Assembly: GCA_002205965.3 (NCBI GenBank)
Contig: NADL03000457.1
Coordinates: 186,001 to 250,000 of the forward strand
Reading direction: 5' to 3'
DNA from: Kappaphycus alvarezii
Taxonomy: Eukaryota > Rhodophyta > Florideophyceae > Gigartinales > Solieriaceae
DNA length: 64,000 nt
Part shown: positions 10,745 to 57,149 of the stretch, in pieces
How positions within the stretch are numbered: the first letter of the stretch is position 1
How the letters are laid out: each line of letters opens with the position of its first letter
Notes under the pieces: model-generated
Seen by the model: the letters and a program-made list of their open reading frames with translations, nothing else
The model's database searches: none
What the model was told of the DNA's origin: nothing
Program-made: the position numbers and the translations under genes

Positions 10745-11240
10745 TGGTTCTTAAATATTTGGAAGGTGCGGTTTGGCTATCCTCCGGTATATGCTAAACG
10801 TGTTCAAGATAATGGGTAGAATCACTCGTGCGCCTAAAAATGCCCCAATCTTAATCCCTAAAGGGCTGGCTCAGTCCATATCAGCAGACATAAGGAGGAA
10901 AAGTTTGGGTGTTTTGCTCTTGGAAGATATACCCGATCTATCCCATGGTTTTCCAGACACCCAAAATTGACTCAAAAAGGTATACCAACACAGTAATTGG
11001 GAAGGTACTACGCTTCCTAAAAAGCTGCCTTCAAGTCAGCAATCAGGCAAGCCGCAATGGACATGACGGCTGCTGCAGCGATCCTTTGCATCAACCCCCC
11101 TGACCCTTTCCGGAAGGCATTATGCGTTGGACATCACTACTGGTACTGCATGCTTGTGGGTTGAAACCGCTCGAACCTTTTCGTATGTCTCCATTTCCCT
11201 AACAGCCATGTTGCGCGAAAGGAAATTTACACCGCACGGG
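10745..11240 (-). mobile_element. Type I LINE (subfamily B) 3' end, interrupted
   Basis: The minus-strand C-terminus (NMAVREMETYEKVRAVSTHK) lies at 11,120-11,235. Its 3' tail (AGCCAGCCCTTTAGG, a CGAGTGAxxCTACCxATTA-type run, GAACACGTTTA, then ACCGxxGGATAGCCxAACCG) lies at 10,745-10,892. The same tail follows the plus-strand copy at 13.5-13.8 kb. The copy is split by another LINE tail at about 10,897-11,118. Confidence 0.75.
10897..11118 (-). mobile_element. Type I LINE (subfamily A) 3' end nested in subfamily B
   Basis: The plus strand reads GTTTGGGTGTTTTGCTCTTG, then GAAGATATACCCGATCTATC and CCATGGTTTTCCAGACA: the inverted A-type tail. The last codons of the A-type C-terminus follow. It sits inside the B-type copy, between its last coding block and its tail, so A transposed after B. 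Confidence 0.75.
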
Positions 11241-11727: not shown

Positions 11728-12150
11728 TAGCGGTGCTGCGCTAGCATAGATACTGCTCAGGTGCCACAGATTTCGGATGTTTGGAACTGTATATAAGGAT
11801 GTAAGAGGGCATGCCCGTGGGCACCGGTCATGGGGCTGAATAAGGATATTTTTAGTGATCTATATATTGCAGCTGGTTTGAACCACTAGAATAAATGCTC
11901 GTGGACTCCATTGGAGGTATGGATATTTTGGAGGTATGGATATTTTGGAGGAATTTTTTGGTTCTGATCTATAGTACTGAGATGTTTAGGAAAAAATGTA
12001 TATATTTATGCTAATAGTATATGCTTTTAGTCTTTATCGTTCACACGATTCCATTTGATGCATTTTATGGTTCTCAGTAAGTTTTTTTGAGACTTAACGG
12101 TTAGCTAAAAAGTCTATATAAGCTGAGCAAACTGCTTCCTCTTGCTTCCG
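11728..12150 (+). mobile_element. Partial Gypsy LTR (acidic-frame family)
   Basis: Contains LNKDIFSDLYIAA and MDILEEFFGSDL-type codons (end of the LTR protein), then CATTTTATGGTTCTCAGT and AAAAAGTCTATATAAGCTGA, the LTR promoter. It breaks off just after TTGCTTCC. Its left part, from GGTGCTGCGCTAGCATAGAT, is shared with the copy at 43.63 kb, so both derive from one rearranged LTR form. Confidence 0.65.
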
Positions 12151-14869: not shown

Positions 14870-15900
14870 GGTGTGGAGGCTGGCTATGGAGACGTCAATT
14901 GCTTGTGGGGTGGTGAGAGCTCGAGATCGTCGATGAAGATTTCCATGCGGTGCTGTGCATGCGGTGGACGATCATGTTCACACGGAGAGGTGAACTCCTT
15001 GGGGCGCAGGCCGATGGATGGATGCCGGAAGAGGGTCATGAGCTTATCCCAAATGTGAATATGACGTCTGACGTATCCCTCCAGGGAGGGACAGGTGGTG
15101 GCGTCGACTGCAAGCGGGTCGAGGAGTGGCGGGGAAGGACGGGAAGAGGGCAGGCAGCGGGGGCACGGCTGGTTTCCTGGGAATATCGGGTTACCGAGTC
15201 TTAGCATCACCATCATAGTCCAAATTTCAGGGTCAGCTTTGGTAGAAAGCTTGGCGACGGGGTGTTTGGAGAAACGTAGGCAAGAAGATCGTGTGGACAG
15301 GACAAATTCCGCTCAAGACGATAGGAAGGAGGTTCGAAGGTGCCAGGAGCCGAAAGTCACGAATCATGACGAGAACGGTGGAAGGCGGCGGTTAGGGTTG
15401 CCTGTGCACCTGAAAGGTGACCGTGGCGTTGGAGGGAGTGGAGGGCGACAGTAAGCTGGAAGGGGGGAGGAATATCCAGCTGGGACGAGAGGTAAGCATG
15501 CGAGAGGGACAGGACATTGTGCAGTGAATATTGGATAGGCGGATGTAGATTGGCTCGAACAATAGCGCCAGTGGCGAGGAGCGAAGTGTAGTATGCGATA
15601 AGGGAAAGTGGGGCGGGGAAGGTCACGCCAAGCCCCCCCCATTTGAAACGGGAGTGTAGGGCACATCCAAGCGTCGTCGTGAAGGTCCCGGTGAACGGCG
15701 TCGAATGCACTTCGCAGTTGGAGGTCAAATTGTTTTGCACTAGAAAGAGAAAGTTGCGGCGGTGCAAGCATGGAGGGTGTGGTCGGCTTCAAAAGGGGGG
15801 GGATTTGGGGTGTAGAACGGCCTCTGTGCGAGACGATGGGGGCAGGTCTATGAAATTAGAGGGTCCGAGGAGGAGAGTGAGCCAGGCGAGACTATATCAC
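14870..15900 (-). mobile_element. Type II-like LINE thumb and zinc region
   Basis: Minus strand: KWGGLGVTFPAPLSLIAYY (the 'GGLGI' block after RT), a long helical stretch, then CPRC...PLLDPLAVDATTCPSL (zinc motif) and EGYVRRHIHIWDKLMTLFRH. This parallels GGLGIPLASS... and LLDPLGKHALTCKYN in the larger LINE at 16.9-20.7 kb, but is clearly diverged. The endonuclease end is missing. GC-rich; open frames on the plus strand here are shadows. Confidence 0.7.
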
Positions 15901-16030
15901 AAGGCTGGTGTGAAACTAACCGTAAGACATGTTTTGTTGAACGAAACCGTCGCCGCGGCGTGTCTTTACACGGTGTGTGCAATCTTTACGGGATGTGGAA
16001 AAGGCATGTGGGAGAACATGTTGAGGGGGA

Positions 16031-16530
16031 TGATAGGGGCAAATCGTCGGGAGAAGAGATATTCAGAACCAACTACCCCAAGAAGGAGGTGTTGCAAGCG
16101 ACAAAAGTGCTGCCGTGGTATAGTTGAACGAATAAAAAGGAGTTTATATGGAAGAGAGTTGAGAGGTCTACAAGCAAGTATGGAAGGGGCAGGGTCTACC
16201 ACTGATGCTCTGTGAGCAGCGTAAGAAAAGGTTTTCTTGGGTCTGAAGTTGACTCTCAACTCCCCACTACTCAGGACTTGGCTTGAAGTTGTCTGCCAAC
16301 TTGCTTGACCTCCACAAGAGGACGCAGTTTACTCAGCTTATATAGACTTTTTGGGTATCCCTAAAGTCTCAAAGAAACATACAAAAAATCATAAAATGCA
16401 CCAAATTGAATCGTTTGAACGAGAATGACTAACAGCAGATACTATCAGGATAAATATCTAGATTCTTTCCTTTATATCTTAGTCCTCTTTATCAGAGCCG
16501 AACAGTTCCCTCAAAATATAGCAAAATATA
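16031..16530 (-). mobile_element. Partial Gypsy LTR, acidic-frame family
   Basis: Starts TGATAGGGGCAAATCGTCGG at 16,031 (the LTR 3' end in reverse), and runs through the R region and inverted promoter CTTATATAGACTTTTTGG to the last codons of the LTR protein (ELFGSDKED, read on the minus strand). It joins minisatellite sequence at about 16,530. Similar to the LTRs of the young Gypsy but with many substitutions. Confidence 0.75.
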
Positions 16531-16740
16531 GCAAAGCCCCCCTCTACAAATAATTGAGAATTAAACTGTAACTACAGTGACAGCGCAGCCAGCGCAGCAT
16601 GCCAGCGCAGCCAGCGCAGCATGCCAGTGCAGCCAATGCAGCATGCCAGCGCAGCCAGCGCAGCATACCAGCACAGCCAGCGCAGAGTGCCAGCGCAGCC
16701 AGCACAGAATGCCAAATAATATCTACAATTTTCATTATAT
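16531..16740 (+). repeat. Minisatellite-bearing LTR-like repeat, copy 2
   Basis: About six 22-bp units of GCGCAGCCAGCGCAGCATGC with CA spacing. The left flank is CTCTACAAATAATTGAGAA and the right flank AAATAATATCTACAATTTTC, A, followed by TTATATCAGGGG. That last word resembles the iMet-tRNA primer site (TATCAGAGC) of Copia elements, as in the copy at 43.2 kb. Confidence 0.65.
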
Positions 16741-16858
16741 CAGGGGATTACAGAGAAACTAACATGCGAAGGGGGATGAGAGAGAAACTAATCGGAAATG
16801 CATCTGGTAAGAACTTGACGAGCTTGCAACCCATGCAAGCAGAACACAAAGCGCGTTA

Positions 16859-17353
16859 TTAGGAGGTGGAGCTCCCATTGGGAGTGGTGCCTCGACGGGC
16901 AGCAGCGAACGTAGAAAAGCGCCGGAAGAAAGTCGCACCGTCGGCCCCAAGGGCACCGAACACATCAATACCAACAGAAAGAAGCCGTATATCGTTCGTG
17001 TGGCAGACTAGACCGTAGTGCGTGTGTTTCGCACGTTCAGCCATTGAGGCAGCTGCGCCGCCAGACAGGGCACACTGGGAAACGCGAGAAGTGACCTGTG
17101 GATGGGCCACTGTGACATCCAAAGCGATATCCTTCGGGTCGAGGCCATATGCAGTAGGGATATAAAGATCTATGCGAAGGGCGGACGAGGGAGAGGACGA
17201 AGGGGGAAGGGGAGGAAGCAGATGTTCAAGAGAGGCAGAAATTCCGAGCTCCTTACAGTGACGATGGAGAGCGTTACGCAAGACATTATTGCGACGAGTC
17301 TGCCCATCGTTGTACTTACAGGTGAGGGCATGTTTGCCCAGGGGATCGAGCAA
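16859..17353 (-). CDS. Type II LINE zinc motif and restriction-like endonuclease
   Basis: The C-terminal 164 codons of the LINE protein. LLDPLGKHALTCKYNDGQT is the end of a zinc-binding motif. LRIDLYIPTAYGLDPKDI, then ALDVTVAHP, matches the RPD...DV core of PD-(D/E)XK endonucleases in R2/NeSL-like LINEs, with an Ile in place of Pro. Such enzymes nick the target site to prime reverse transcription. The tail AERAKHTHYGLVC...FGALGADGATFFRRFST is shared with the copy at 26.4-26.9 kb (EREKHRHYGTYC...YGALGDDGKGFFRRLS), so the whole domain is conserved in the family. Confidence 0.8.
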   Translation of the reverse strand: MLDPLGKHALTCKYNDGQTRRNNVLRNALHRHCKELGISASLEHLLPPLPPSSSPSSALRIDLYIPTAYGLDPKDIALDVTVAHPQVTSRVSQCALSGGAAASMAERAKHTHYGLVCHTNDIRLLSVGIDVFGALGADGATFFRRFSTFAAARRGTTPNGSSTS

Positions 17354-17647
17354 CGGGGCGATGTCGTTGGAACGGCGAGCACATACCGGACATCGATCAT
17401 GACCAGAGAAAATCGCGCGGCCTAGGCGTAGAGATACAGCGACTATCCAAGCTTGCGAAGACAGATACGTTCCGCGGTGAGGGTGCGGTAAAGTTGAGAA
17501 AGCTGAACAGGCGGACGACTCACGGACGGATAGGAGGCGAGATCTGTCGCGGTCAGAGGATGATCGGAAGATCCGATCAAACGTCGAACTGTGAAGCTCA
17601 GACGAGATAGCAGACTGGAGCCGTTCGCCGGGGACCGGCGTTTGACA

Positions 17648-19140
17648 TCACTGAAACAGGGAAGTGGGCGACAAGGAAGCCGAGAGATCTAAATAACGGG
17701 TAGATAATAAAGAAATCGCGGCCCGAGGCACTTCCTCCAGGTGCAGGTGTCCCGAGAAGGAGAGCAGATCTGAGAAACGGCGGAAAACATCAATCATCGA
17801 AGCCGCATAAGCGGACTCAGGAATTGAAGAAGCGAGAGGAATGCCGAGACCACCGTAGGAAATAGGAAGGCAGGCTTGCTCCCATTTGGAGTCGGTGCAA
17901 GGACCATGAATCTGTGCGAAAGCCTCCCGCTGCTTCCGGTCGAAGCTGACGGCCAAAGCCGCAGATTGGTGGGGGTAGCGAGTCCGCAGCAGATAAATAA
18001 CCTTACAGGCGCTCGCACAGAAACGGTGCAAGTGGTAGGCCATCTGGGTGTCATCGAGGACTGAAGACAGGAAAAGATGCGATCTACTGCAGCTTGACGG
18101 GTGTCGAATGCGGCGCTGACGAAGGAATCGGAACCAATGGGAGAGCCAAGAACGGTAATGCCATCGGGCGTGGAAAGGGGCAGGGAAGAGTGAGGGGAGA
18201 AGTATTATAGGAGATGCCGTATACGTGGGTTTTGGTCATATTCAGTGCGAACCCGATTGCTTGTCCCTGACTCTGGAAGAATTGCAAAGCCTCGAGGGCC
18301 TGCGAGCGGGGAACAACCAAGTTCCCATCGTCCGCATACCAAGCATTGAGCGGGGGCCGGAATTGCTCCTGGAACTTGAGAACGAGAGGATGGAGAGCGA
18401 GAGCGAAAAGCAGAGCCCCCAACGGATCCCCTGTTGAGTGCCATCGGCGCTTAGTACGGAGAATGAACCGAATGAGAGAAAAGAGGTATCCCGAAAGCAG
18501 TAGTGAACCCATCGCGCGATGCCAGGTGCAAAGTCCAGAACGGCATCAAGAATGCGTTGTCGAGAAATGCTGTTGAAAGCATTGTGGGCATCGACTTGGA
18601 TCAATACGTGGTCCTGGAACTTGGTGTTTTGCATCAGGCGACGGACGGCATGAACAATGGCCTCAGCCCCACTTTTAACGCCCACGCCGAGTTGATGAGG
18701 CAAGAGATAGGAAGCTGCAGTCGAGCAAGCCTTGTGGCGAGGAGGCGGGCAATAAGTCGGCGGAGGAGGAGACCAACAGCTATAGGGCGAAGTCCACCGT
18801 TGGGCTTGTGGAGGGCTGTGAGCCGGCCCCCGCAGAAGTAGGCCGGGCACGAGTCCGGTAGTTCGCCGCTGGAACACATGTTAACAAACTTAGTCAGCAC
18901 ATAAAGACAGTCACGGGCGGGATGCACTCCTCCCGCAGGTCGAAGCAACATACGGAGAAAGACCGGGGAAAGGCCATCAGATCCAGCGGTGGACGGGTCG
19001 AGGCTATGGATGGCTCTACGAACATCCGAAACGGAAAACTTGACGGCAGGGGGAAGACGAGAGTTAGGAAGGGGCTGAACGGGGGACGCGGGCGTGGGGT
19101 GAAGGGATTTGAGTCTGCGGAGATTGTCTTCCGAGGGCAC
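17648..19140 (-). CDS. Type II LINE reverse transcriptase and thumb
   Basis: Several overlapping frames on the minus strand give a complete set of RT blocks: AIHSLDPSTAGSDGLSPVFL (fingers), KPNGGLRPIAVG, VLIQVDAHNAFNSISRQRIL (motif A, Asp), GTQQG and GDPLGALLFALALHPL (motif B), NAWYADDGNLVVPRS (motif C, YADD) and FALNMTKTHVYG. The thumb follows with KWEQACLPISYGGLGIPLAS. The catalytic aspartates are present. The domain is split over at least four frames, so the copy is not translatable as it stands in this assembly. Confidence 0.8.
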
Positions 19141-19604
19141 AACAGGTGGGGTATCGTGCAGTAAGGCTGCTGTGGCACGGGAAGGACTGCCACGGTGCAG
19201 TAAGCGGCGGCTGCGCTGGAGGTAGATGGGGAAGGAGAGGCGTCGGCATGAGTAGCAGGGGGTGGGAGGCCCGAAAAGGAGAGGGCTTCAATGAAGAGGT
19301 CATCGAAAAGACCGGAAGATGCGATACGAATGCGGTCAGCAAGATTGGAGCAGTTTTCAGAGCGGCTCGAGCGATGGAAGCGAGGATGATTGCGTCGAAA
19401 TACGAACAAGTTCGAGAAGGGCACGATGACGATGTGCATCAGACGGAGCAGCGATGACACGGCTCAGGAGGCAAAATAGAGGTCGTAGGCCGCTGCTTGA
19501 ACTGGGCGAGGGATGTACGGAAGAACGGGTATCGAAGCCCTGAAAAGAGCAGGGAAAGTAAGGGCAGTAGGAGGGACAGAAGCAATCCTACTGGTCATTA
19601 TCGG

Positions 19605-20734
19605 TCATTGATTCCGGAACTGGGACGTATTCGAGGACAGAGAACGACCGTCAGCCTGCGGGGGAACAGGGGAGCTAGGAGCAGAAGAGGTCGCGGGCCC
19701 AGGGCCGCGACGTGCAACCAGGGTAAAACCGTCCGTATCGGTCACTTCTGGACGGGCGCGACGGCGCTTAGAGTGGACAGCGGGAACCGAAGTGGGTGCG
19801 AGGAGGCATGTCCCGGGCAAAGGTGGGATCGGCAGAAAGAGTCTGGTAAGCTGCGGATTCCATTTCGCGGAGGGATTGGGCAAAAGCAGGAGCCGGATAC
19901 CACTGGCAGGACGGAGATTCCAGGCTTCCGATTTCCAGTCGAAGGCCAGGAAAGACGCCGGGGAGCTGGGCAGGAGACAGGTCTGAAGAGATGTCCATGA
20001 TTTCGGAAAACACGAGTTCGGGAGGGTCGAAGTTGTCTGATGTCTTCGCCAAGTTTCGGAAGGCGGTATAGGTGGGAAGCAATGACGCCAAATCCCGATC
20101 GGCAGCGCACACCATGAAGAAATGAGAAGAAGAGGAGCGAATAATGGAACAGGAGCCGGTAAAACCACCTTGTGTGATGCCTCGGCGGATAGCGGACGGA
20201 TCGTGTACAGGAAAGTCCGGAGAAGACGTGACAACGACAACTCGCTTGGTGTTGCCGCCACATAGCCCGCGAGTGGCTCGGCGGACGCGGCCCGCAACTT
20301 GGTGGAGATCCGAACAGCTGAAAGGTCATCATATTGGGTGAGGCCTTGGCGGCCCAGGAAAGGGAGACGGCGGACAGGTTTGGGGCCGTTGGGGGCATGT
20401 TCGCCACGTGTAGGTAGGATTGGGCGGGAGGCAGAGGAGCAGGATTGGGAGACTGGTCCGATTCAGTGGCAGGAGAAGTTGGCAGGGAAGGGGCCGCAAG
20501 AGAGGTCAAGACATGCAGAACGGAACGAAAGTGAGGGTTGTTTTGCAGAGAAGGGGCCAGAGCGACCGTCACGGGGGAGTTCTGAACGGCAGAACAGAAT
20601 GCAGCTGTGGCTGCAGGGTCGGAGAGGTCGACGACCCCATCAAAGATGGAGACGCATTTGACCAGGTAATCCATCGACGCATGGGTTAGGGAGACAACGG
20701 TGTCAGAATGCCCAGAAGAAGGTCGGGAGGGCAT
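19605..20734 (-). CDS. Type II LINE N-terminal / ORF1-like region
   Basis: Starts MPSRPSSGHSDTVVSLTHAS at 20,734. Residues up to about 155 are Ser/Pro/Ala-rich, with helical stretches (YLVKCVSIFDGVVDLSDPAA). In another frame the 19,605-20,297 part ends TDTDGFTLVARRGPGPATSS, a 'DGFTxVxxR' motif common at the end of LINE ORF1-type or N-terminal domains. I recognise no RRM or zinc knuckle. It probably binds nucleic acid by position in the element; this is inference. Confidence 0.5.
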
Positions 20735-21420
20735 AGTGGCAGAAACTGTGGGGTCGGGAGATCACAGGAAAGGGAATAGCCAATAAAAAGGTCACGATAA
20801 ACAAAAAATCAAGAAGTAGCCAATAAGATAGCGCTGTGGAAAAACGAATCTGGCGAAGATCGGGAGAAGCAAAGAAGAAAAAAAGGAAAAAACCGGGAGA
20901 AGAGGGAAGATGAGGGCAAAAGCACCGTCGTCGCGCGACAGAGCGCAACCGCAGCAGAACCGCGGGAGCGGGCGCGAACGTCGGACGAGGGAGGGCGAGG
21001 TGTAGGGGAAGAGGGAGTTTCACAGAAGAAATACAAACAAAGATATCAGCTAAAGACTTCATTGTTTGTTGCCTTTGCAAAGGTTTCCATGGGTCGCACC
21101 ACCGCGACATTGCCTAGCCACGTCATGCAGCACCAATAGCGACATTCTGCACATTATCGCAGTACAGTACTGTACGTACTGTACTGTACAGAGGGATGAA
21201 CACGGGGTGTTGTTATCTGGAAAGGCTCAGAACCAGGAGTTTGTTAAGCAGTACAGGACATTCCACCGAATGTTGTACACTTGTAAGAGTGCACTGCACA
21301 AGTATGTAAAAAACAGATCCGTAAGCGCAAACTATAAAACATATAATCATCTTTACTTGATGTATTATAAAAGGCGTACAAGCCTAGCTGACAGTGTAAG
21401 CTAAGAAACGGTATGGTATG
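20735..21420. other. LINE 5' flank and GTAC-rich palindromic DNA
   Basis: 20,735-21,060 (minus) is the likely 5' leader of the type II LINE. At 21,160-21,193 a run of GTACAGTACTGTACGTACTG with further GTAC words is nearly self-complementary. No gene recognised. Confidence 0.4.
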
Positions 21421-25274: not shown

Positions 25275-26010
25275 GGGGAAAGGTTTGGGTGTTTTACTCT
25301 TGGAAGATACATCCGATCTGTCCCATGGTTTTCCAGACAACAATCACAATCGACTCAAAAGTGTATACTGACACAGTAATGGGGAAGGAACTACGCTCCC
25401 TAAAATGCTACCTTCAGGTCAGCCATCAAGCAGGCCGCATTGGACTTGACGGCTGCTGCTGCGTGCCTTTGCATCAAAACCCCCCGAACCTTTCCGTACG
25501 TCTCCAATGCCCTCACGGCCACGTTCCTTGCCACATCATTTAGCACTTCACATGCATCCGGGTGCCACCCTCCAAGAGTGGAGATTGGCACAGGCACGAG
25601 CCTACCCCCGGTGGAGATCGCGATAAAGGATTGATATCTTTTCTGCTTTGCATTTCGCGCCGCATTAAGAAAGGACACCGGGTTGAAGGCCCTCACTCTC
25701 CTGTTGGAGGGAGCGAGGGGATTCACGGGGGTAACATGAAAAAGTCGGTCCCTCCGCTGCTTCCCATTGCCTGGATGCCAGGTCTCGTGCGCTGGAGACC
25801 ATGGCGTGGCTCTACGACAGAATGACGAGCAGCTCTTCCCAGGTCTTTTGCGAGAAGGTTTACTTGGCGATCATGTCGGTTGATCCTGTGGGCCCCATGC
25901 AAGCAGTGCATGAGATGATCGCCATGTGCATCGAGTGTTTCCGGGCAATTCCTTCTTGGGCATGGCGTGCCAGGGTGAAAAAGTGGACTTGACAGTAGCA
26001 TTGAAGCCAC
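25275..26010 (-). mobile_element. Type I LINE (subfamily A) 3' end with full tail
   Basis: Minus strand: zinc motif CPRRNCPETLDAHGDHLMHC, RINRHDRQVNLLAKDLGRAA, then RPGIQAMGSSGGTDFF (endonuclease core), NPLAPSNRRVRAFNPVSFLN and VPVPISTLGGWHPDACEVLN, down to NAACLMADLKVAF and stop near 25,400. The 3' tail continues to 25,275, ending GTAAAACACCCAAACCTTTC on the minus strand. This copy links the dispersed tails elsewhere in the window to the LINE. One frame change lies between the two halves. Confidence 0.85.
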
Positions 26011-29335: not shown

Positions 29336-31245
29336 TCAAAATGTTGTAGAGCCATGCCATGGTCTCCACTGTACGAGACCCGACATCCAGGCAATGGGAA
29401 ACAGCGAAGGGACCGACTTTTTTGATGTTACCTTCGTGAATCCCCTCGCTTCCTCCAACAGGAGAGTGAGGACTTCCAACCCAATGTCCTTCTCGAATGC
29501 GGCGCGAAATGAAAAGCAGAGAATATCAATCTTTTCGATGTGCGCAAAAATTGCACACGAAAAAAAACTAGAAGAGGACCAAATTTGGATACACTATCGG
29601 ATTTGCAAGATATTTTTTACAGTTCCTGAATTTGAAAGATATCTTTAATTTGGATGAGTGTGGCAAATTCAAGGGTTGATTTTTTATTTTAAGACACAGT
29701 GTCATTAATAGATGTCATTACTGTACACGTCCAAGGTCGACATACTTTTCGAAGACGTCACAGTATCTAAACTTCGAAGTCGATGTCGTTGAGGCAACCC
29801 CCCGCCATAAACTACCCCATCGGCTCACCCCTTCTTTGGCCCTTAACATGACCAACCTCCGTCCTTCCCTCACTATTTCCAAGTCATCCCGGGCCGTCGT
29901 CCACTCAACGCTCTGGCCCTGATGGCAAATGGTCCAACCGACTACGATGATTACTGTAGAAGATTGGACAGGGAACGCATTCGGGAGTGGGTCCGCCGTA
30001 ACTGCTTTTAGCAGGCAGAAGAGGCAGGAAGGCAGAGAAGGAGGAGGAGGCGGAGGAAGAGGAGGATGAAGAGGAGGGCTCGGTGGACCCGTGGGAGCTA
30101 CTAGTGAACAACGGTGGAGGGGATCCCATGGAGAACGAAGCGGATACTGAGGGAGCAATTTTGATCTATGACTCTTCTGAAGAAGATGAAGAGAGGGGTG
30201 AAGAGGAGGATGAATGGGATGAGGGGGGGGAGACATGAAAAGTGCTGGAATAGTGGAGAAGGGGCCGGAAAATATGGACCAGGTGGTCTCGACTCTGGAA
30301 CCGGATGGGGGCGTCTTCCGAGGTCTAGATATTTCGCAGGAGGCAATGGAGAATTCTAAGCCGTTCGTGGATATCTGTGGGGACTGTTTGGGTGGAATGA
30401 AAATTTTGGGAACTGTTTGGATCTGATATAGAGGACTAAGATACTAAGGAGGAAATCTAGATATTTATCCTGACAGTATCTGCTGTTAGTCTTTCTCATT
30501 CTCAAGATTCCATTTGATACGTTTTATGGTTCTTAGTATGTTTCTTTGAGACTTTAGGGTTAGACAAAAAGTCCATATAAGCTGAGTAAACTGCTTCCTC
30601 TTGTGGAGGTCAAGCAAGTTGGCAGACAACTTCAAGTCAAGTCCCGAGTAGTAGAAAGTTGAGAGTCAACTTCAGACCCACGAAAATTTTTCCTACGCTG
30701 GTCACAGAGCATCACTGGTAGACCCTGCCCCTTCCATATATGCTCGTAGCCCTCTCAACTGTCTTTCTTATCCACTCATTTTCGTTCGTTCAACTATACC
30801 ACAGTAGCACTTTTGTCGCTTGCAACACCTCCTTCTTGGGGTTGTTGGTTCTGAATATCTCTTCTCCCGACGATTTACACCTACCTTTTATCGCGATCTC
30901 CACCAGAGGTAGGCTCGTGCCTGTGTTAATCTCCATTCTTGGAGGGTTGCACCCGGATGCATGTGCAGTGCTAAATGAAGTGGCAAGTAACGTGGCCGTG
31001 AGGGCATTGGAGACGTACCGAAAGGTTCGGGTGGTTCTGATGCAAAGGAACGCTGCAGCAGCCGTCATGTCCAATGCGGCCTGCTTGATGGCTGGCATGA
31101 AGGTAGCTTTTTAGGGAGCACAGTTACTTTCCCATTACTGTGTCGGCATACACTTTTTGAGTCGATTGTGGTTGTCTGGAAAACCATGGGATAGACAGGA
31201 TATATCTTCCAAGAGTAAAACACCCAAGCTTTTTCCCCTTACAAA
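29336..31245 (+). mobile_element. Type I LINE (subfamily A), split by a solo LTR
   Basis: The left part, 29,336-29,535, encodes RPDIQAMGNSEGTDFFDVTF and VNPLASSNRRVRTSNPMSFS. The right part, 30,885-31,115, encodes AISTRGRLVPVLISILGGLH, VLNEVASNVAVRALETYRKV and NAACLMAGMKVAF. The tail follows to 31,240. The LTR at 29,536-30,884 lies between them, with CTTTT on both sides; without it the LINE sequence runs on directly. Confidence 0.9.
29536..30884 (+). mobile_element. Solo Gypsy LTR with acidic reading frame, CTTTT duplication
   Basis: The start (CGATGTGCGCAAAAATTGCA) and first 180 bases match the young Gypsy LTR (TGATGTGCACAAATTCGCAC), as does the right third from ATCTAGATATTTATCCTGAC on, including AAAAAGTCCATATAAGCTGA and CTCTTCTCCCGACGATTTAC. 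Between 29,800 and 30,430 it carries the LTR-borne protein: NGPTDYDDYCRRLDRERIRE, a long Glu-rich stretch, QVVSTLEPDGGVFRGLDISQ and FVDICGDCLGGMKIL. The protein region has several breaks. A solo LTR is the usual trace of recombination between two LTRs. Target duplication CTTTT (29,531-29,535 and 30,885-30,889). Confidence 0.9.
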
Positions 31246-43470: not shown

Positions 43471-43477
43471 TGGCCTG

Positions 43478-43625
43478 CTTGATGGCTGGCCTGAATGTAG
43501 CATTTTAGGGAGCGTAGTTACTTCCCTATCACTGTGTCGATATACCGTTTTTGAGTTGATTGCGGTTGTCTTGAATACCATGGGGTAGACTGGATATATC
43601 TTCCAAGAGTAAAACACCCAAACCT
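43478..43625 (+). mobile_element. Type I LINE tail insertion
   Basis: Starts in the last codons (CLMAGLNVAF-like), then GGGAGCGTAGTTACTTCCCT..., ending AAACACCCAAACCTTTCG. It interrupts a GTACAGTAGCGGTG-like sequence that is continuous in the copy at 11,715-11,735; TTGTACAG and CTGTACAA flank it. Confidence 0.75.
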
Positions 43626-43629
43626 TTCG

Positions 43630-44527
43630 CGCTGTACAAGAGCGGTGTTGCGTTGCCATAGATACTGCTCAGATGCCACAGATTTCGGGAGTTTTAAAAT
43701 GTATGTAGAGAGCTTTTGCCGCCTTACTTACGTCGCTGCTTTCCGGCACGGTTTCTCCCCTCAACAAGAGCTTCGCGACTTCGTTACCCGTTTTGCATCA
43801 CGTTTTTAGGTGATGCAAGCACGACGGTTTCCACCCCCGCCCGCATTTGTAGTTAATTTCTGACTATCCTCTATAAGCTTCTGTATCACACTGGAAAATT
43901 TTTGAAGATTTACCACCCATCTTATAAGGAGGTAAAGAACGATGCCTGGGGCACCGACTATGGAGCTGAATAAGGATATTTTTGTGATCTAGATATTGCA
44001 GCTGCTATGAACCACTCAAAGGAATATTTGTGGACTGCTTTGGAGGTATGGATATTTTTGAGGAACTTTTTGGCTCCGATCTCGGGGATTAAGATTGCGA
44101 CAGGTAAATCAAGACATTTATTCTGACAGTATCTGCTAGTAGTCTTTCTTGTTTACACGATTCCATTTGATGCATTTCGCGGTACGCGGTATGTTTGTTT
44201 GAGACTTTAGGGTTAGCTAAAAAGTCTATATGAGTTGATTAATCTGATCTCTCGTTTAGAATTAACAGACAACTTCAAGTCAAGTCCCGAGTAATCAGGA
44301 AGTTGAGAGTCAACTTCAGATCCAAGAAAATCCTTTTACGCTTTTCACGGAGCAGCAGTGGTAGATATCGTCACTTTCATACTTTATTTTAGTCCTTTCA
44401 AATTTCTTCCTTATCCAACTCTTTCTGGTGGGGTAGCTATACCATGGTGGCACTTTTGGCGCTTTTAATACCTCTTTATTTGGAACATTGATTCTGAGTA
44501 TCTCTTCTCCCGACTATTTACCCAATC
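43630..44527 (+). mobile_element. Gypsy LTR of the acidic-frame family, rearranged
   Basis: The left part (GGTGTTGCGTTGCCATAGAT, CAGATGCCACAGATTTCGGG) matches 11,730-11,780. The end of the LTR protein lies at 43,950-44,090 (MELNKDIF, LDIAAAMNHSK, GGMDIFEELFGSDLGD). The promoter AAAAAGTCTATATGAGTTGA and R region follow, ending CTATTTACCCAATCA at 44,527. A type II LINE 3' end is nested within it. Confidence 0.7.
43715..43922 (+). mobile_element. Type II LINE 3' end nested in an LTR
   Basis: AAFRHGFSPQQELRDFVTRF, then VMQARRFPPPPAFVVNF and AAGATTTACCACC near the end, matching 26.29-26.48 kb. It sits inside LTR sequence that is uninterrupted at 11,780-11,830, so it inserted after the LTR formed. 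Confidence 0.75.
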
Positions 44528-45193: not shown

Positions 45194-45914
45194 TGATAGG
45201 GGTAAATCGTCGGGAGAAGAGATATTCAGAATCAACCACCCCAAGAAGGAGGTGTTGCAAGCGACAAAAGTGCTACCGTGGTATAGTTGAACGAACGAAA
45301 AGGAGTGTATAGGGACGACAGTTTAATGGGCTACAAGCAAGTATGGAAGGGCAGGGTCTACCACCTATGCTTAGTGACTAGGGTAAAATAAATGCTTCTT
45401 GGGTCTGAAGTTGACTCTCAACTTCCTAACTATTTGGGACTGAGCTTGAAGCTGTCTGCCAACTTGCTTGACCTCCACTAGAGGAAGCAGTTTACTCGGC
45501 TTATATAGACTTTTGGCTATCCTAAAAGTCTTCAAACAAACAGACTAATAACCATAAAATGCATTCACGGGAATCGTGTGAACCAGAGAGACCATTAGAA
45601 GATATTTCCTCAAGGTAAATATCTAGGTGCCATACCCATGCCAGCCACCCATCGGCCAGGGGTGGGAATTGATGTGGCCATTATATAGACCTTTCAGAGT
45701 CACTCGTAGTATCACCCACAACCTAGAACTGTACTGACATCCACTATGACAGCGTGTCCTAAAATAAAAAAATCAACCGATGAATTTGCCACACTCACCC
45801 AAATTAAAAATATCTTGCAAATTCAAAAACTGTAAAAATATCTTCCCAGTTCCAATACTGTATACAATTATGGTCCTCATCTAGATTTTTTCGTGTGCGA
45901 ATTTGTGCACATCA
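45194..45914 (-). repeat. Young Gypsy 3' LTR
   Basis: 721 bp, TG...CA ends. The promoter AAAAGTCTATATAAGCCGAG lies in it. Compared with older LTRs at 8.6, 29.5 and 55.6-57.1 kb it lacks the roughly 600-bp acidic protein frame between the first 200 bases and the promoter. Confidence 0.97.
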
Positions 45915-45950
45915 CGCCCTCCCGCTCAAGACGAACGTCCCGGCTCGTTC

Positions 45951-48200
45951 TCAATGCTCTTGTTGTTCTTGTGGGAGTTCTATCCATTCATCAGGGAGAG
46001 TATAGGGTTCACTGTAAGGATATGGTAGTAGCTCATTTCCAATATGATGAGAGAGTGTGTACCGTGCGATAACCGGCTCATCTCCTTGGTCAAGAGTTTC
46101 GTAGATTCGGTGTATGGTTTCATAGTGTTCTCTAATGAGCTCCTCCCGTTTCACTTCTCCAAACCTTCCAAATGTGAGGTAGTAAACGTAGTATGCAAAC
46201 TTTTCTTGCAACGGGTCCAGAAACGGGTATCTGAAGGAGAAAAAAACTCGCAACATAAGGACTGAGTCCTCACGAGTAAGGTGCGCCCCGTGAATGGTCT
46301 GGAAGCACATGCAAATACTAATGGCAAAAAAGGAAATTACTTCTGCTTCTCGAGGGTCCTCTGTCATTTCGCGAAGCCAACGTCTAATTGGTAGCCGTCC
46401 AATAATTAAGGATGCATAGTTTCCCCTTGGGAGACTAGGCGGTGTTTGGGGCGATCTTCTTGGCGATCTTCCTCGCTGCTCCCGACGCCTTGCCCTCTTC
46501 GATGATCCGCCTCGATCACTTGATGGTCCTGCCCGTATCATCATAACGGTCTCGGGAGGATCTTGGTCTCCAGCTGAGGTTGTGTTTCTGAGCGGAGCAA
46601 CGTAAGGTTCCCATAGAGGATACGGGACCAGTCGATATTCCATATCAGGGGGCAAGCTGTAACCTCTCAGTCGCACATCTTGGTTGTTCTTGAGAAATAC
46701 GTAAACTGGACGGATAATATTCAGATATGTTTGCGACAAGTCTCCGATAGCTACCATTCCATACCTTCCTATAGAGTAATGATATATGACTTCCACAAAC
46801 TCTGGACCTGCTTCCGTGAACCTTCCGTTTTGGAATGAGAATAGAACTCTGATTAATAGTCGGAAATCTTCTTCAGGTAGCAATGGTCCGTTCAACGTAC
46901 GAAAACATAGGCATATATTAATGTAGAAATGGATGATTACGTGGAGTTCGTAGTAGTCACGCGTAATCGAGATGATCCATTCCCAGGCCCTTTTTCCTCC
47001 CATAGGAATCATTCTATAGTTAAAGATGAGTATTCCCCGTGGTTGCGCATAGTCCTGTGTGAGAAGGAATTCTTCAGGCCTCTGATGGTAAGGGACCAGA
47101 CGAGGTGCATGGATTGCCCTCCTTGATCTCTTCCCTGAGCTTGAACAGAGCTTATAATGCGGGTGTCTTTCCTCCGTGACGATGCAAGGGTTCGAGTACT
47201 TTGTTTGGAAAGCCGGCCATTTCACAGCCTGTTGCATTGCTTTTCCGTGTGCTACAAGTACTTTAGAGCCGACTGAGAAAGTTTGGACTGGAGGCTCTTC
47301 ATCCTTATTTCTTGTCTGTGTTAGCGCGCGGTGTGATCTCCAGCTTTCGGTGGCCAGTAGTTCGACCTCTCTACTCTCTTCGTCGATAATATTTGTTTCC
47401 ATATCTCTCTGTAACATTCTAGGAGCTCTTCCGTACATTAGCTCAAACGGTGACCGTCCACTTCTTCCTCTTCTTCGACGATAGCCGTATAACACTTTTG
47501 GTAAGGCATCTTCCCACTGGATTTCATTCTCCGACATAGTTTTCGATATTGCTCGTTTGATGGTTCCAACCATCCTCTCCGCTTTACCGTTTGACATAGG
47601 AGCGTATGCGAGAACTGTCTTCAGCTGAATCCCCTTCTCTTCCAAGAAACGAAGCAGTGAAGTTGCAGTAAAACAAAGGGCGTTATCTGAGATGATCCTT
47701 TTTGGAAGACCAAACGGTTCAATTATTTCTTTTTCGATGAATCTCAGGACCACTTCAGCATTGGCCTCCTCAACTGCAACTGCTATTGGCCATCCAGTAA
47801 GATGTTCCACCCCTATAAGGAGGTATTTGTTTCCGGAAGAGGTTTCCTTGAATGGGCCGGCAAAGTCAATTGAGAAGGTTTCAAAGAGACCGGAAACTGG
47901 AAAGCCTAGAGTTGTCTTATACTTTCGTATTGGCGTGAATTTTTGACAGTTGTCGCAGCTTTTCACGAAATTATAGACGTCCTTATGGATACTGGGCCAC
48001 CAGAATCTCTCAGTAACGAATTTCTTGGTTGTTTCGAGATCCCAATGCCCTAACTCATCATGAAAAGTCCTCAAGATCTTCATTCTTTCTTTCAAAGGGG
48101 CCACTAGTCGAGGACCGGCTTTCGTGTGTCGGAAGAGTTTCCATTCATAGTGTAAAAGCCTTTTGATTCCTGCGTACCCAATTTCTGTGTTCAATATCAA
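45951..48200 (-). CDS. Young Gypsy integrase with long C-terminal extension
   Basis: 749 codons open. Residues 47-86: HHCC zinc domain (HDELGHWDLETTKKF, CDNC). Residues 108-255: catalytic core with FSIDFAGPFKETSSGNKYLL, RIISDNALCFTATSLLRFLE and LAYAPMSNGKAERMVGTIKR (D, D, E in place). Residues 300-370: an SH3-like tail (FSVGSKVLVAHGK). There is no chromodomain; instead about 380 residues follow with two copies of one unknown domain (about 397-537 and 603-738), joined by an Arg/Ser/Pro-rich linker (SKRARRREQRGRSPRRSP). The extension nearly doubles the usual integrase length. Joins element DNA to the chromosome. Confidence 0.93.
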   Translation of the reverse strand: MILNTEIGYAGIKRLLHYEWKLFRHTKAGPRLVAPLKERMKILRTFHDELGHWDLETTKKFVTERFWWPSIHKDVYNFVKSCDNCQKFTPIRKYKTTLGFPVSGLFETFSIDFAGPFKETSSGNKYLLIGVEHLTGWPIAVAVEEANAEVVLRFIEKEIIEPFGLPKRIISDNALCFTATSLLRFLEEKGIQLKTVLAYAPMSNGKAERMVGTIKRAISKTMSENEIQWEDALPKVLYGYRRRRGRSGRSPFELMYGRAPRMLQRDMETNIIDEESREVELLATESWRSHRALTQTRNKDEEPPVQTFSVGSKVLVAHGKAMQQAVKWPAFQTKYSNPCIVTEERHPHYKLCSSSGKRSRRAIHAPRLVPYHQRPEEFLLTQDYAQPRGILIFNYRMIPMGGKRAWEWIISITRDYYELHVIIHFYINICLCFRTLNGPLLPEEDFRLLIRVLFSFQNGRFTEAGPEFVEVIYHYSIGRYGMVAIGDLSQTYLNIIRPVYVFLKNNQDVRLRGYSLPPDMEYRLVPYPLWEPYVAPLRNTTSAGDQDPPETVMMIRAGPSSDRGGSSKRARRREQRGRSPRRSPQTPPSLPRGNYASLIIGRLPIRRWLREMTEDPREAEVISFFAISICMCFQTIHGAHLTREDSVLMLRVFFSFRYPFLDPLQEKFAYYVYYLTFGRFGEVKREELIREHYETIHRIYETLDQGDEPVIARYTLSHHIGNELLPYPYSEPYTLPDEWIELPQEQQEH
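45987..47012 (-). other. Tandem-duplicated accessory domain in the Gypsy integrase
   Basis: Copy 1 (47,012-46,590) and copy 2 (46,394-45,987) share, in order: ISIT-D/EMTED, INICLCFRTLNG / ISICMCFQTIHG, LIRVLFSF / MLRVFFSF, IGRYGMV / FGRFGEV, a helix ending RPVY / HRIY, RGYSL / ARYTL, and LVPYPLWEPYVAPL / LLPYPYSEPYTLPD. Identity by eye is about one third, with no gaps in the key blocks. Helical, Phe/Cys/Ile-rich. No known domain is recognised. Confidence 0.8.
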
Positions 48201-49871
48201 CCTTTCTCATTTCTAGTCCATCCAGGAATTTAATTAGTCCGTGAATATTAGCTTCGTACTCGTTATTGTTCGGCACTTGCACCTCGGCAACTCCGACGAT
48301 GTTCTCGGAAGCTTTTTCATTTGGAATCAGTGGATCCCTCAAGCGGGATAGGTAATCGGCAGGCTGATTATTGCGTCCGGGCCTATACACAATTTCAAAC
48401 CGATATTCTGCGAAAATGTCGAGCCATCGGGCCAAGCGGTGATGTACATCTTTCTTTTGGAATGCTGTCTTAAGTGCCTGGTGATCAGTTATCAAGACAA
48501 ATTTCTCGAGTGATAAAAGGTAAACACGAAACTTTTTCAGTGCGAAGACGACAGCTAGCGCTTCTTTCTCGCAGACTGAGTATCTCTTTTCCGCATCATT
48601 CAGAGTGCGACTTGCGAATTGAACCGGGTGTAGTCTTCCGTTTTCATCTTTTTGGGACAAAACGGCACCCAAAGACCGTTCTGAGGCATCTGTCTCCACA
48701 ACAAATGGTCTCTTGAAATCTGGATACATGAGCACTGGGGGACACATAGCTTATCTTTAAGCTCTTCAAATGCGGTTTGCATTTCCTTGTTCCATAAAAA
48801 TTTTCCGTTCTTTGTTGTGCTGGCATGTAACGGTGCTGCAGTCTTGGCGAAATCTTTGATAAATCTCCTGTAATATGAGGCCAGTCCTAAGAAGCTTCGA
48901 ACCTCCGTCTTTGAAGCGGGCCTTGGTGCCAACTTGATTTTTTTCGTTTTCTCTGGATCCACTTTAATTCCCTCTTGATCGACGATATGACCGAGTAATT
49001 GGATAGACGTTTTCGCAAAGAAGCATTTGCTTAACTTAATTTTCAGGCTGTACGCAGCTATTTTCTCCACCACAGTCTTGACATGCGATATGTGCTGATC
49101 CAAGGTTTTTGAGAATATCACTACATCATCGATATAAACTCTTGCAAATGGAAGTCCTTTCAAAACCTCGTTCATCATTCTTTGGAATGTAGCTGGGGCA
49201 TTCATGAGACCAAAAGGCATCACTTCGAACCTGAATGTACCGGCTTTGCTGGTAAAAGTTGTTTTTTCCTTGCATTTTTCATCCAATGGAATCTGCCAAT
49301 AACCAGTGTAAAGATCAATTGAGGTGAAGTATCTCCCGTCCTTCAAGTCCTCGAGGATTTCCTCCATATTTGGAATCGGAAATCGATCGGGTATCATTCT
49401 CTGGTTCAGTTGTCGGTAATCGACGCAAAAACGCAGCTTTCCATCCTTCTTTGGTGCGACCACAACTGGAAATGACCATGGGGATGAAACTGGCCGAATG
49501 ATATCATTTTCCAGCATACTTGTAACATTCTCTGAGATAAATTGGTCATATTTTGGCGGTTGACGTCTAGGCCTGTGGTAAATTGGTTGAGTATCGGTAA
49601 GTTCAAATGAGTGAGTGACCGGTACACTTGCTTGTCTTAAATCTGATACACTCCATGCAATTACTTCGGAAGATGTTAACATGTCGGATATTATCATTGA
49701 GGCGGGGGCTGGAAGGTGCTGTACTTTTTCTTGAATTTCTCCAATTTGGCGCTGGTCCTTTTCTTGATCCTCACCCTCCAAATTTTGAAGGACCTCTTCC
49801 GGCGTGCTCACATCTTCAGATATGGAATTCGATATATCCTTGTTTTCCGTGCAATTGTAATCTTCTTTCAT
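48145..49871 (-). CDS. Young Gypsy reverse transcriptase and RNase H region
   Basis: RT blocks: VVAPKKDGKLRFCVDYRQLN, FTSIDLYTGYWQIPLDEKCK, FEVMPFGLMNAPATFQRMMN and ARVYIDDVVIFSKTLDQHIS (YIDD catalytic), then LGLASYYRRFIKDFAKTAAP (connection). RNase H: VVETDASERSLGAVLSQKDE, FASRTLNDAEKRYSVCEKEA, LITDHQALKTAFQKKDVHHR and RPGRNNQPADYLSRL. All catalytic blocks are present. These copy element RNA into DNA and remove the RNA strand. Confidence 0.95.
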
Positions 49872-49995
49872 GCCCGAATTCCGTCCTTTGATTCGATATT
49901 ATCGCAAAAAGAAACACATTCAGGTGTCAAACCTACCCTAGAATTCCATTCTTCATCTGTTTCAAACCCAGAATCATAATCGTCCCATGTCATGT

Positions 49996-51876
49996 TCATT
50001 GTCCCCCGAGCGTACCCTTTCTCACTTCCGAAAGTGTTAGTTGGTTCGGAATCTTCGCTGTCATAGCTAGAAGTGAAATCTTCACTGTCGTCTCTCTTAG
50101 ATCTTCCGGATGTGTGCTTTTGTCGAAATCCAGGGGCATCTTCACGTTTCTGCCGTCAACATTAACTGAAACGATTTGGTTGCCCAAGTCAATGCAGGTC
50201 CCTAGTCTTTCCATGGTAGGACAGCCAATGATTGCATCGAAAGGGAGCTCCGGCATGACGAGAAAGTCTACATCAACTTTAGAGTCCCCAAAGAACACGG
50301 AAACCTTGTTAACAGTGCCCATGCATTTTGAGACGGTTCCATCCGCCACAGTTATTCTTCGAGTAGTTGGAATAATTTCGAGACCTAAATCTGTCACCAA
50401 AGTTTCTGAGATAAGGTTTGGAACAGCGCCCGAATCGAAAAGAGCTTGGGTTTGCATTCCCAATACTTTGACTGGTACTAGTTTAAGACGTCTTGGTGCT
50501 GTCGAGGCCGATTGAAGAAACAGTTTCTTACCCTTAGCGGACTTATTAGACCTGATAATTTTTTTGAGTTCTTTTCTCGCATCCTCTGCGTCGCCCCTCA
50601 AAAGTTGACCAAACGTTATCCCAGTTGGGGCCGATGCAAGCTCAGCCACCAAATTGTACTTCTTCACATATTCTAGTACGTCCTTCGGGATACTCTTAAA
50701 TTTCTTACTCTTTCTCGTCTTCTTGGCCGAAGTGTTTCCCACCCCTGGAACAACTTGATCAAGCCTCTTGGTTCGAGGAGGTACAGGTGCTGGGATATGC
50801 TCCAGCATTCCATAATCTAGCCTAGGTTTTTTCGACAAAACGTTCCCTTCCCCATCCCTTTTTGTCACATTAACTTGACTGATTTCTTCAGCGATGGATA
50901 CGTTACCGGCATCCGCCAACCTTTGATCCTTCCTGTTTTGTAAGATTTTCATCTCTGGTCCTGACTCACTCCTCGCGTCCGATAAATTTGCTCTTCTGTT
51001 GTCTTTAGACCAGCAGTTACTTTCATGATGCCCGTAACGACCGCACTTTCCACAACGAGTGTTTCTATGTGGATTATCAGGACATCTATTTGCAAAGTGT
51101 CCAGGCTTGTGACAGTAGGAACAGACTTCTGCGGCCTTGGGGGCCCCAGACTGGTTCTTCTTAATGGTAAGAGTAAGGCTTTCCAACTGCGAGGTTATCA
51201 TGTCAAGTCGATTATCGAATCGGGTTTCCAACCTTTCTTCCAAGTTTTTGACATCGCTCCTGACTGATTCCAATGCTGCTGCGCTAGTCGCTGGCCTTTG
51301 ATAATTCTTTTCAGGATGTACGATAGACACCGATGTGGGGGTTTCCCTCGGTACCTCACTCAGTGACTGAAACGTCTCCGAATTTTTGACAAATTCTACT
51401 ATGGTACCCTTCAGTTCATTAAAAGTGTGAGGGCCCTTGATGAGGAGGAAATCGGAGAGCCGCTTATCCCCCATCGCCGCCTTACGCAGCATTCCGTACT
51501 TGGCTTGGGCGTTGAACCCAGCCTTTTCATAGAGATCACACAAGTATACCAATGAGCTTAACAAATCGTCGAAGTTGAGCCGGGCCTCTATGGCGGTACG
51601 AATCATCTCATCTGGTTCTACCTCCTTAGCATATTCTTTCACGAGCCACTCACATACCTCACCGAAGTTACGCCCATTCCCGTTAAGAGACCACCCGTTG
51701 ATAAACTTGGCCTTATATTTGTGCTTTGCGTCACCATGAAGATAGGCGAAGATACTTTCGGCCTTCTCTTCATCGCTCTTCTCACGCATCACAACGTTGA
51801 CATATGTATAGAGAAACTCCTCAACGTCTTCATTCTTGCCCCCTGTGAACGTTATACGAGCAGCGTTGAGATCCAT
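49996..51876 (-). CDS. Young Gypsy Gag and protease
   Basis: A 626-codon open frame. Residues 1-190 are a capsid-like helical gag (ITFTGGKNEDVEEFLYTYVN, VVMREKSDEEKAESIFAYLH). Two zinc knuckles follow at about residues 253-290: CSYCHKPGHFANRC and CGKCGRYGHHESNC. A basic linker leads to a conserved block KYNLVAELASAPTGITFGQL, then LRGDAEDARKELKKI. The aspartic protease has LFDSGAVPNLI (DSG active site) and AIIGCPTMERLG. Packages and cleaves the element's own proteins. The second Gypsy at 59.4 kb has the same layout. Confidence 0.93.
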   Translation of the reverse strand: MDLNAARITFTGGKNEDVEEFLYTYVNVVMREKSDEEKAESIFAYLHGDAKHKYKAKFINGWSLNGNGRNFGEVCEWLVKEYAKEVEPDEMIRTAIEARLNFDDLLSSLVYLCDLYEKAGFNAQAKYGMLRKAAMGDKRLSDFLLIKGPHTFNELKGTIVEFVKNSETFQSLSEVPRETPTSVSIVHPEKNYQRPATSAAALESVRSDVKNLEERLETRFDNRLDMITSQLESLTLTIKKNQSGAPKAAEVCSYCHKPGHFANRCPDNPHRNTRCGKCGRYGHHESNCWSKDNRRANLSDARSESGPEMKILQNRKDQRLADAGNVSIAEEISQVNVTKRDGEGNVLSKKPRLDYGMLEHIPAPVPPRTKRLDQVVPGVGNTSAKKTRKSKKFKSIPKDVLEYVKKYNLVAELASAPTGITFGQLLRGDAEDARKELKKIIRSNKSAKGKKLFLQSASTAPRRLKLVPVKVLGMQTQALFDSGAVPNLISETLVTDLGLEIIPTTRRITVADGTVSKCMGTVNKVSVFFGDSKVDVDFLVMPELPFDAIIGCPTMERLGTCIDLGNQIVSVNVDGRNVKMPLDFDKSTHPEDLRETTVKISLLAMTAKIPNQLTLSEVRKGTLGGQ

Positions 51877-51965
51877 GATTACAGAAAAGAAATCCCCTCG
51901 AATGGTTCCCTAAGACTGCTCAACTCGAATACCTCGGGTGCAACCCCCTCCACAAGAGTACCAAA

Positions 51966-52687
51966 TGATAGGGGTAAATCGTCGGGAGAAGAGATATTCA
52001 GAATCAACCACCCCAAGAAGGAGGTGTTGCAAGCGACAAAAGTGCTACCGTGGTATAGTTGAACGAACGAAAAGGAGTGTATAGGGACGACAGTTTAATG
52101 GGCTACAAGCAAGTATGGAAGGGGCAGGGTCTACCACCTATGCTTAGTGACTAGGGTAAAATAAATGCTTCTTGGGTCTGAAGTTGACTCTCAACTTCCT
52201 AACTATTTTGGGACTGAGCTTGAAGCTGTCTGCCAACTTGCTTGACCTCCACTAGAGGAAGCAGTTTACTCGGCTTATATAGACTTTTGGCTATCCTAAA
52301 AGTCTTCAAACAAACAGACTAATAACCATAAAATGCATTCACGGGAATCGTGTGAACCAGAGAGACCATTAGAAGATATTTCCTCAAGGTAAATATCTAG
52401 GTGCCATACCCATGCCAGCCACCCATCGGCCAGGGGTGGGAATTGATGTGGCCATTATATAGACCTTTCAGAGTCACTCGTAGTATCACCCACAACCTAG
52501 AACTGTACTGACATCCACTATGACAGCGTGTCCTAAAATAAAAAATCAACCGATGAATTTGCCACACTCACCCAAATTAAAAATATCTTGCAAATTCAAA
52601 AACTGTAAAAATATCTTCCCAGTTCCAATACTGTATACAATTATGGTCCTCATCTAGATTTTTTCGTGTGCGAATTTGTGCACATCA
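51966..52687 (-). repeat. Young Gypsy 5' LTR
   Basis: 722 bp, the same as the 3' LTR apart from three run-length differences. In element orientation it starts at 52,687 and ends at 51,966, just before the primer-binding site. Confidence 0.97.
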
Positions 52688-55379: not shown

Positions 55380-55570
55380 TGTAAGTCATAGAAGTGCTTT
55401 GAGAATTTTGTCGGAACTGGTCCACGGGTCAGATGAAGAGGTGGGCGAGGACGAGTGCGAAAATTGAGAGTAGTTCGAGTAGTCCGAGAATCAGGAGGGA
55501 TAGTGTGGAACAAATCACAACGGAAGGGAAGGATATAATTCTGTGGGACAGGTGGTCCCGACTACGGGTT
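55380..55570 (+). mobile_element. Scrap of the LTR-borne acidic protein
   Basis: HGSDEEVGEDECEN-like codons and GGACAGGTGGTCCCGACTAC, matching the QVV(P/S)TLEPDG segment of the LTR protein at 30.28 and 56.5 kb. It lies just upstream of a better copy, so two LTRs of this family abut. Confidence 0.45.
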
Positions 55571-55639
55571 TGGTGGGAGTGACATTCTATCACTGTACTT
55601 CCCTAAGGAAGAGGTATTGAATCCTGAGCCGGTCAAGGG

Positions 55640-57107: not shown

Positions 57108-57149
57108 ATACCTATGGGCACATATGATGTCTTAAATGTTGTTGAAATG

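Follow-up and report, generated by a model that had tools for sequence, protein, structure and literature searches.

Does a retrotransposon keep a protein-coding gene inside its long terminal repeats (LTRs), sequences usually treated as regulatory DNA? The question is raised by a stretch of 64,000 nucleotides from the red alga Kappaphycus alvarezii (contig NADL03000457.1, positions 186,001 to 250,000 of the forward strand; hereafter the window, whose own numbering is used throughout). A reading made from the letters alone, the sequence-only reading, had proposed that three LTRs of a Gypsy family, at 8.57-10.02, 29.54-30.88 and 55.6-57.1 kb, hold protein-like sequence ahead of their promoter, and that selection had once acted on the protein. 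We found that each of these LTRs, called A, B and C, retains ahead of its promoter what is left of a single acidic protein frame, with codon-level constraint specific to the frame. We consider it probable, at roughly 0.78, that a Gypsy lineage carried a protein-coding gene wholly within the unique 3′ (U3) region of its LTR. If a selected gene is kept there, solo LTRs, usually the commonest remains, are gene copies, and automatic annotation may already hold such frames as unnamed proteins.

Solo LTRs, the frame and its promoter-like boxes

The argument depends first on whether the extra segment lies inside genuine LTRs. The copies concerned, with their target-site duplications (TSDs) and with P1 denoting a TATA-like box upstream of the frame, are the following:

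8568-10001, plus strand: LTR A, a solo LTR and the most diverged copy; TSD CCTTA on both sides, TG..CA ends
29536-30884, plus strand: LTR B, a solo LTR with the frame; TSD CTTTT on both sides, a paralogous empty site, both ends matching the LTRs of the full-length Gypsy
55655-57107, plus strand: LTR C, a solo LTR within the older copy H; TSD ATACC on both sides
55100-55654, plus strand: copy H, with a P1 box TATTTAAA at 55100 followed by decayed frame as far as the insertion of C; beyond C, similarity picks up again at about 57113
45194-52687, minus strand: full-length young Gypsy; LTRs at 45194-45914 (721 bp) and 51966-52687 (722 bp), 99.6% identical; TSD CTATC

The full-length element serves as the reference. 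Its LTRs start with TGATG, end with TATCA and have CTATC on both flanks, and along the minus strand it encodes an Asp protease (in 49996-51909), RVT_1 (in 48600-49898) and H2C2 with rve (in 45951-48206); it thus has the flanking LTRs, short TSD and protease-reverse transcriptase-integrase order of a Ty3/Gypsy element. Its short LTRs are without the open reading frame (ORF). When LTR B was compared with them, 188 bp at the U3 start matched at 83% and about 430 bp at the other end at 84%; between these matching ends B holds about 730 bp, and the short LTR has about 100 bp there instead. A and C resemble the full-element LTRs only in the part formed by P2, the ordinary LTR promoter TATA (T)ATAAGCTGAGTAAACTG downstream of the frame, and the repeat and unique 5′ regions (R-U5). 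A 5-bp TSD flanks A, B and C alike, and B matches the full element at both ends, as expected of solo LTRs. The exact ends of A and C were placed where homology stopped and a direct repeat was available, which leaves some freedom, and canonical TG..CA ends are gone in B, which starts with CG, and in C, which starts with TC. An empty site for the insertion of LTR B was found in a paralogous repeat at about 25.6 kb. Given the TSDs in all three copies and this empty site, the extra segment of A, B and C is located within true LTRs.

Copy H resembles A from the TATA-like box onwards, across the frame as far as the point where C inserted, and again behind C. Since A-like similarity lies on both sides of C, an older frame-bearing LTR was hit by a younger one, and the interval 55100-57230 is a nested insertion of LTR C within the frame of the older ORF-bearing LTR H. 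The dispersed repeat that was the target of LTR B lies at 25414-25819, 29342-29535, 30887-31241, 10891-11110, 4146-4347 and 43472-43648.

The frame and its remnants are distributed as follows:

56096-56665, plus strand: ORF in C, the best preserved; ATG to TAA (56663-56665), about 189 codons, of which 188 sense plus an internal TAG at 56231-56233
29848-30439, plus strand: ORF remnant in B, the frame of C with frameshifts; in-frame pieces 29898-30008, 30026-30235, 30238-30408 and 30410-30436
9090-9567, plus strand: ORF remnant in A, more decayed, with stops and a frameshift; pieces 9090-9230 and 9262-9567
44006-44083, plus strand: C-terminal ORF remnant F, found by tblastn
11936-11971, plus strand: C-terminal ORF remnant E, found by tblastn
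16482-16517, minus strand: C-terminal ORF remnant D, found by tblastn
about 58240-58440, plus strand: G, an LTR remnant next to a second Gypsy (pol 60.2-63.8 kb), with the 3′ tail of the ORF and the P2 region

The frame aligns in A, B and C by DNA alignment without protein guidance, and tblastn connects the three through their N- and C-terminal motifs, as the sequence-only reading had claimed; its further C-terminal matches in copies at 11.85, 16.5 and 44.0 kb were recovered as E, D and F. A hidden Markov model (HMM) built from the A, B and C copies agrees, although it is circular for these copies. The local score between G and A (29.5) exceeds that of all 852 background windows except two, which are A itself, and the next score (22) comes from part of G. 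The reverse transcriptase (RT) regions of the two Gypsies share 67% identity over 410 bp, a divergence which hints that the frame is old, with G as a candidate 5′ LTR of the second element. One octapeptide match, LEPHGEVF at 57882, was discarded as being at chance level and too distant from P2.

The frame is bracketed by promoter-like elements:

29764-29771, plus strand: P1 TATA-like box TATCTAAA of LTR B, 84 bp before the frame start
8921-8928, plus strand: P1 TATA-like box TACTTAAA of LTR A, 96 bp before the aligned start
55981-55988, plus strand: P1 TATA-like box TATTTAAA of LTR C, 115 bp before the frame start
30550-30583, plus strand: dyad GACTTT-N12-AAAGTC (30550-30573) and P2 TATA (CATATAAG) of LTR B

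In H the distance from the P1 box to the aligned start is 116 bp; for A and H this start was placed by hand from the alignment. The P1 motif TAYYTAAA (TA[TC][TC]TAAA) is present upstream of the frame in all four copies tested (A, B, C and H), with shuffle probabilities of 0.008 for C, 0.0065 for B, 0.009 for A and 0.0225 for H. It occurs five times on the plus strand of the window, four of these being the P1 boxes, and six times on the minus strand. A dyad, AGACTTT-N9..12-AAAGTCT, lies just 5′ of the LTR TATA in most copies, including those at 56771-56793 and 52265-52325; its arms are perfect over 6-8 bases in seven of the nine copies examined (two of the seven being the LTRs of one element) and over 5 in A, and none was found at that place in G. 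In this layout the segment resembles a gene that has a promoter of its own within U3.

Codon-level constraint on the frame

Selection on a protein should be visible codon by codon, and all figures given here rest on DNA-only alignments; a protein-guided codon alignment gave a stronger position-3 bias but favours the hypothesis. In the ORF, differences at codon positions 1/2/3 numbered 62/63/94 of 186 sites each between C and B (p 0.0019) and 74/77/104 of 182/181/182 sites between C and A (p 0.0081). This third-position excess was absent downstream to the LTR end (29/26/30 for C-B, 56/56/61 for C-A) and in U3 upstream of the frame (40/38/38 and 53/63/63). Hence the even spread over codon positions that the sequence-only reading had named as the outcome against it was not found in either pair. 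Nei-Gojobori ratios of nonsynonymous to synonymous change (dN/dS) in the frame were 0.25 for C-B (pN/pS 0.48, bootstrap 0.38-0.59) and 0.44 for C-A (pN/pS 0.66, bootstrap 0.54-0.81). In the other forward frames the ratio was 0.90-1.12, and in R-U5 it was 0.69-1.25, where one of six intervals (C-A frame 0, 0.63-0.99) barely leaves out 1. These results support the claim of past selection on the protein.

A neutral simulation, in which the same substitutions were placed 2000 times, gave the same picture: in-frame amino-acid similarity stood at z 6.5 for B and 4.3 for A, and the other two forward frames lay between -1.5 and 0.2. The pair C-H is also constrained in the frame (z 2.9, p 0.0017). Within the frame, C-B codon identity was 26/54 at the N-terminus vs 13.0 expected and 42/71 at the C-terminus vs 35.0 expected, and the middle is low-complexity and GAG-rich, with identity to B and A near the neutral expectation (p 0.11, 0.32).

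Such a middle invites the reading that there is no gene at all, and that purine-rich promoter-proximal DNA was conserved for regulation, the open frame being a product of base composition. The near-neutral identity of the GAG-rich middle fits this view, as does the 241-codon antisense open frame that B carries at 29721-30443 (minus strand). However, the signal is carried by the ends of the frame, where identity exceeds expectation, and shuffles do not produce such a frame: of 2000 dinucleotide shuffles of the C segment, none had at most one stop in the given frame, and only 1 did when the best of three frames was taken. The antisense frame, moreover, is closed in A and C. We therefore regard conserved regulatory DNA as a highly improbable explanation. 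Antisense coding was rejected as well, the equivalents in A and C being stopped (longest 105 and 94 codons) and antisense conservation lying below that of the sense frame. The shuffles and codon tests likewise exclude a composition artefact; the acidic middle alone would not be sufficient for the case.

Several observations weigh against a selected U3 gene. An intact copy is present in none of the window's copies. Three of the six sub-region tests for third-position excess (N-terminus, middle and C-terminus: p 0.033, 0.11 and 0.043 for C-B; 0.21, 0.026 and 0.10 for C-A) are non-significant, and A-H alone lacks clear constraint (44 codons, p 0.25; 66 codons, p 0.045). Silent sites between C and B are near saturation (proportion of silent differences, pS, 0.67), making dS imprecise. 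Antisense frame -2 of the ORF is also above neutral (z 3.2, 2.3), as is one antisense control frame in R-U5 (A, z 3.4); the z values of the simulation therefore overstate significance and are to be taken as relative. The P1 motif was defined only after the copies had been inspected. A dyad in a single copy is non-significant, appearing in 6-28% of shuffles, and the dyad is kept in the short LTR lacking the gene; only its recurrence has weight, and the copies are related. Finally, the AlphaFold structure model of the product is poor, with a mean predicted local distance difference test (pLDDT) score of 49.9.

Taken together, the codon comparisons indicate that the frame-specific constraint is real, though measured on three and a half old copies. 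The sequence shows a frame that sits between P1 and P2, its amino-acid sequence kept under purifying selection during lineage divergence.

Predicted product and known parallels

What would such a gene encode? The predicted C protein has 189 residues, with 57 D/E and 15 K/R. Residues 1-60 contain 8 D/E and 11 K/R, residues 61-120 contain 31 and 2, and residues 121-189 contain 18 and 2, making the first 60 residues slightly basic and the remainder strongly acidic. The AlphaFold model contains one long predicted helix, at 29-71. No Pfam model reached the cut-off with the four proteins or pieces scanned, every match falling well short of it (best E 0.045), and a PDB search gave no credible match, only narbonin at E 0.18 and 0.85. 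The usual 19-residue hydropathy cut-off for transmembrane segments is near 1.6; the C protein has no strongly hydrophobic 19-residue stretch, its best mean being 0.66.

The nearest known design is the sag gene of mouse mammary tumour virus (MMTV), in which U3 of the 3′ LTR contains the entire ORF and, ahead of the classical promoter, additional promoters (PMC12789967). The parallel with MMTV sag drawn by the sequence-only reading is right for this position in U3. Sag, however, belongs to a vertebrate retrovirus and is a transmembrane protein of type II, whereas the product predicted here is acidic, has a best hydropathy mean well short of a membrane segment and is carried by a Gypsy element; superantigen activity would be meaningless in the likely host. 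The same source places coding sequence of HIV-1 nef in U3 of the 3′ LTR. Only a part of nef is located there; the present frame is so wholly. In crapaud of Podospora anserina, LTR subfamilies vary mostly in U3, with R and U5 conserved (PMC10787394); the accessible part of that report describes no LTR ORF, and its authors propose promoter selection or recombination. Rotifer ORF3 (PMC5408684) and rice Retrosat2 ORF0 (PMC3485330) are likewise accessory ORFs of uncertain role in LTR retrotransposons, but ORF0 is upstream of the gag-pol ORF and ORF3 is additional beside gag and pol, neither being described inside the LTR in the sections available. Full-text literature searches, whose coverage leaves out most subscription journals, found no Gypsy element, fungal or other, with an ORF inside its LTR. 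Retroviruses already provide accessory ORFs in LTRs; within that coverage, the Gypsy setting and the protein appear new. The locus would add to MMTV sag a second, independent example of an accessory gene lying wholly in U3, outside vertebrate retroviruses.

In the mechanism we propose, P1 would drive a short mRNA ending downstream within the same LTR. Each reverse transcription copies U3 into both LTRs, so every new copy would receive the gene twice. The gene would persist in a solo LTR, which would allow decayed or solo copies to act in trans for the family. The product may act in the nucleus to regulate the P2 promoter of its own element; its N-terminus is basic and predicted to be helical, its middle very acidic, and its C-terminus short, conserved and acidic-hydrophobic. 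This regulatory role is tentative, and we consider it somewhat unlikely. We give about even odds to a real U3 gene with another function, for instance as an acidic chaperone for histones or for Gag, as a factor that counters silencing or as a trans-dominant inhibitor of copy number. High acidity and predicted disorder suit many partners, and the short-LTR line, which lost the gene, shows that at least one lineage can transpose without it; on the other side, no result favours any one of these candidates.

A broader picture is possible, if short of probable: a non-vertebrate retrotransposon lineage with a self-contained U3 gene and its own promoter, in which each LTR, even a solo one, would act as a trans-acting mobile gene, U3 diversification would reflect an arms race around the protein, and the short LTRs would be lines that escaped. 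Through this system, the causes of U3 diversification among LTRs become open to direct test.

Origin and history of the frame

Where did the frame come from, and why is it missing from the full-length element? The short LTR of that element has two TATA boxes about 180 bp apart, and the first does not align with P1 of B, although the distance from the LTR start is about 228 bp for both. Over R-U5, identity among B, C, D and the short LTRs ranges from 0.86 to 0.92; it falls to 0.72-0.75 in comparisons with F and to 0.57-0.64 with A. The silent-site difference between B and C in the frame (pS 0.67) is far above their R-U5 difference (about 12%), and R-U5 is likely to be constrained or homogenised. 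By parsimony, the frame predates the divergence of LTR types A, B and C and was lost from the short-LTR line of the full element, most simply by deletion; one loss is simpler than repeated gains because A is the most diverged type. Support for the tree is weak, however (0.65-0.93), and recombination may have exchanged U3.

One alternative is that LTRs captured a host gene, perhaps repeatedly, and that selection acted beforehand on host paralogs, the LTR frames being passive passengers. It would agree with the lack of any retroelement or other homolog in Pfam or PDB, and with a U3 5′ of the frame that is not detectably similar between LTR types. Yet frame, P1, downstream P2 and R-U5 come in identical order in A, B and C, which independent captures would not yield, and in D, E, F and G, too, the frame tail is linked to P2. 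A single capture, for its part, leaves the constraint between LTR types unexplained, and we judge host capture improbable. An unrelated element inserted once in an ancestral LTR was the other adverse outcome foreseen by the sequence-only reading: it could stand as an origin, but it leaves the later codon constraint between LTR lineages unexplained.

A further proposal, which concerns origin only and is compatible with a U3 gene, is that the gene began as an accessory ORF between pol and the 3′ LTR, over which the LTR boundary shifted outwards. Other LTR elements have additional ORFs downstream of pol, such as rotifer ORF3 (PMC5408684), and P1 precedes the frame, as expected of a free-standing gene. 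Against it, a six-frame HMM search of the window's one full element found no trace of the frame in 45-52 kb above reversed-sequence noise among the best 25 matches. We consider this origin fairly unlikely.

Searches for relatives were given little weight, since the collections used are not designed to include fungi: in viral contigs, the C-terminal protein query returned 31 stretches with 0 confirmed, the RT query none and the P2 DNA query 0, and in prokaryotic genome contigs 0 of 119 stretches were confirmed.

The window is rich in retroelements, comprising the full Gypsy on the minus strand, parts of the second Gypsy at 58-64 kb and Copia parts. At 15364-20761, overlapping long open frames run on both strands of G+C-rich, strongly skewed DNA, with a weak RVT_1 match (E 0.024).
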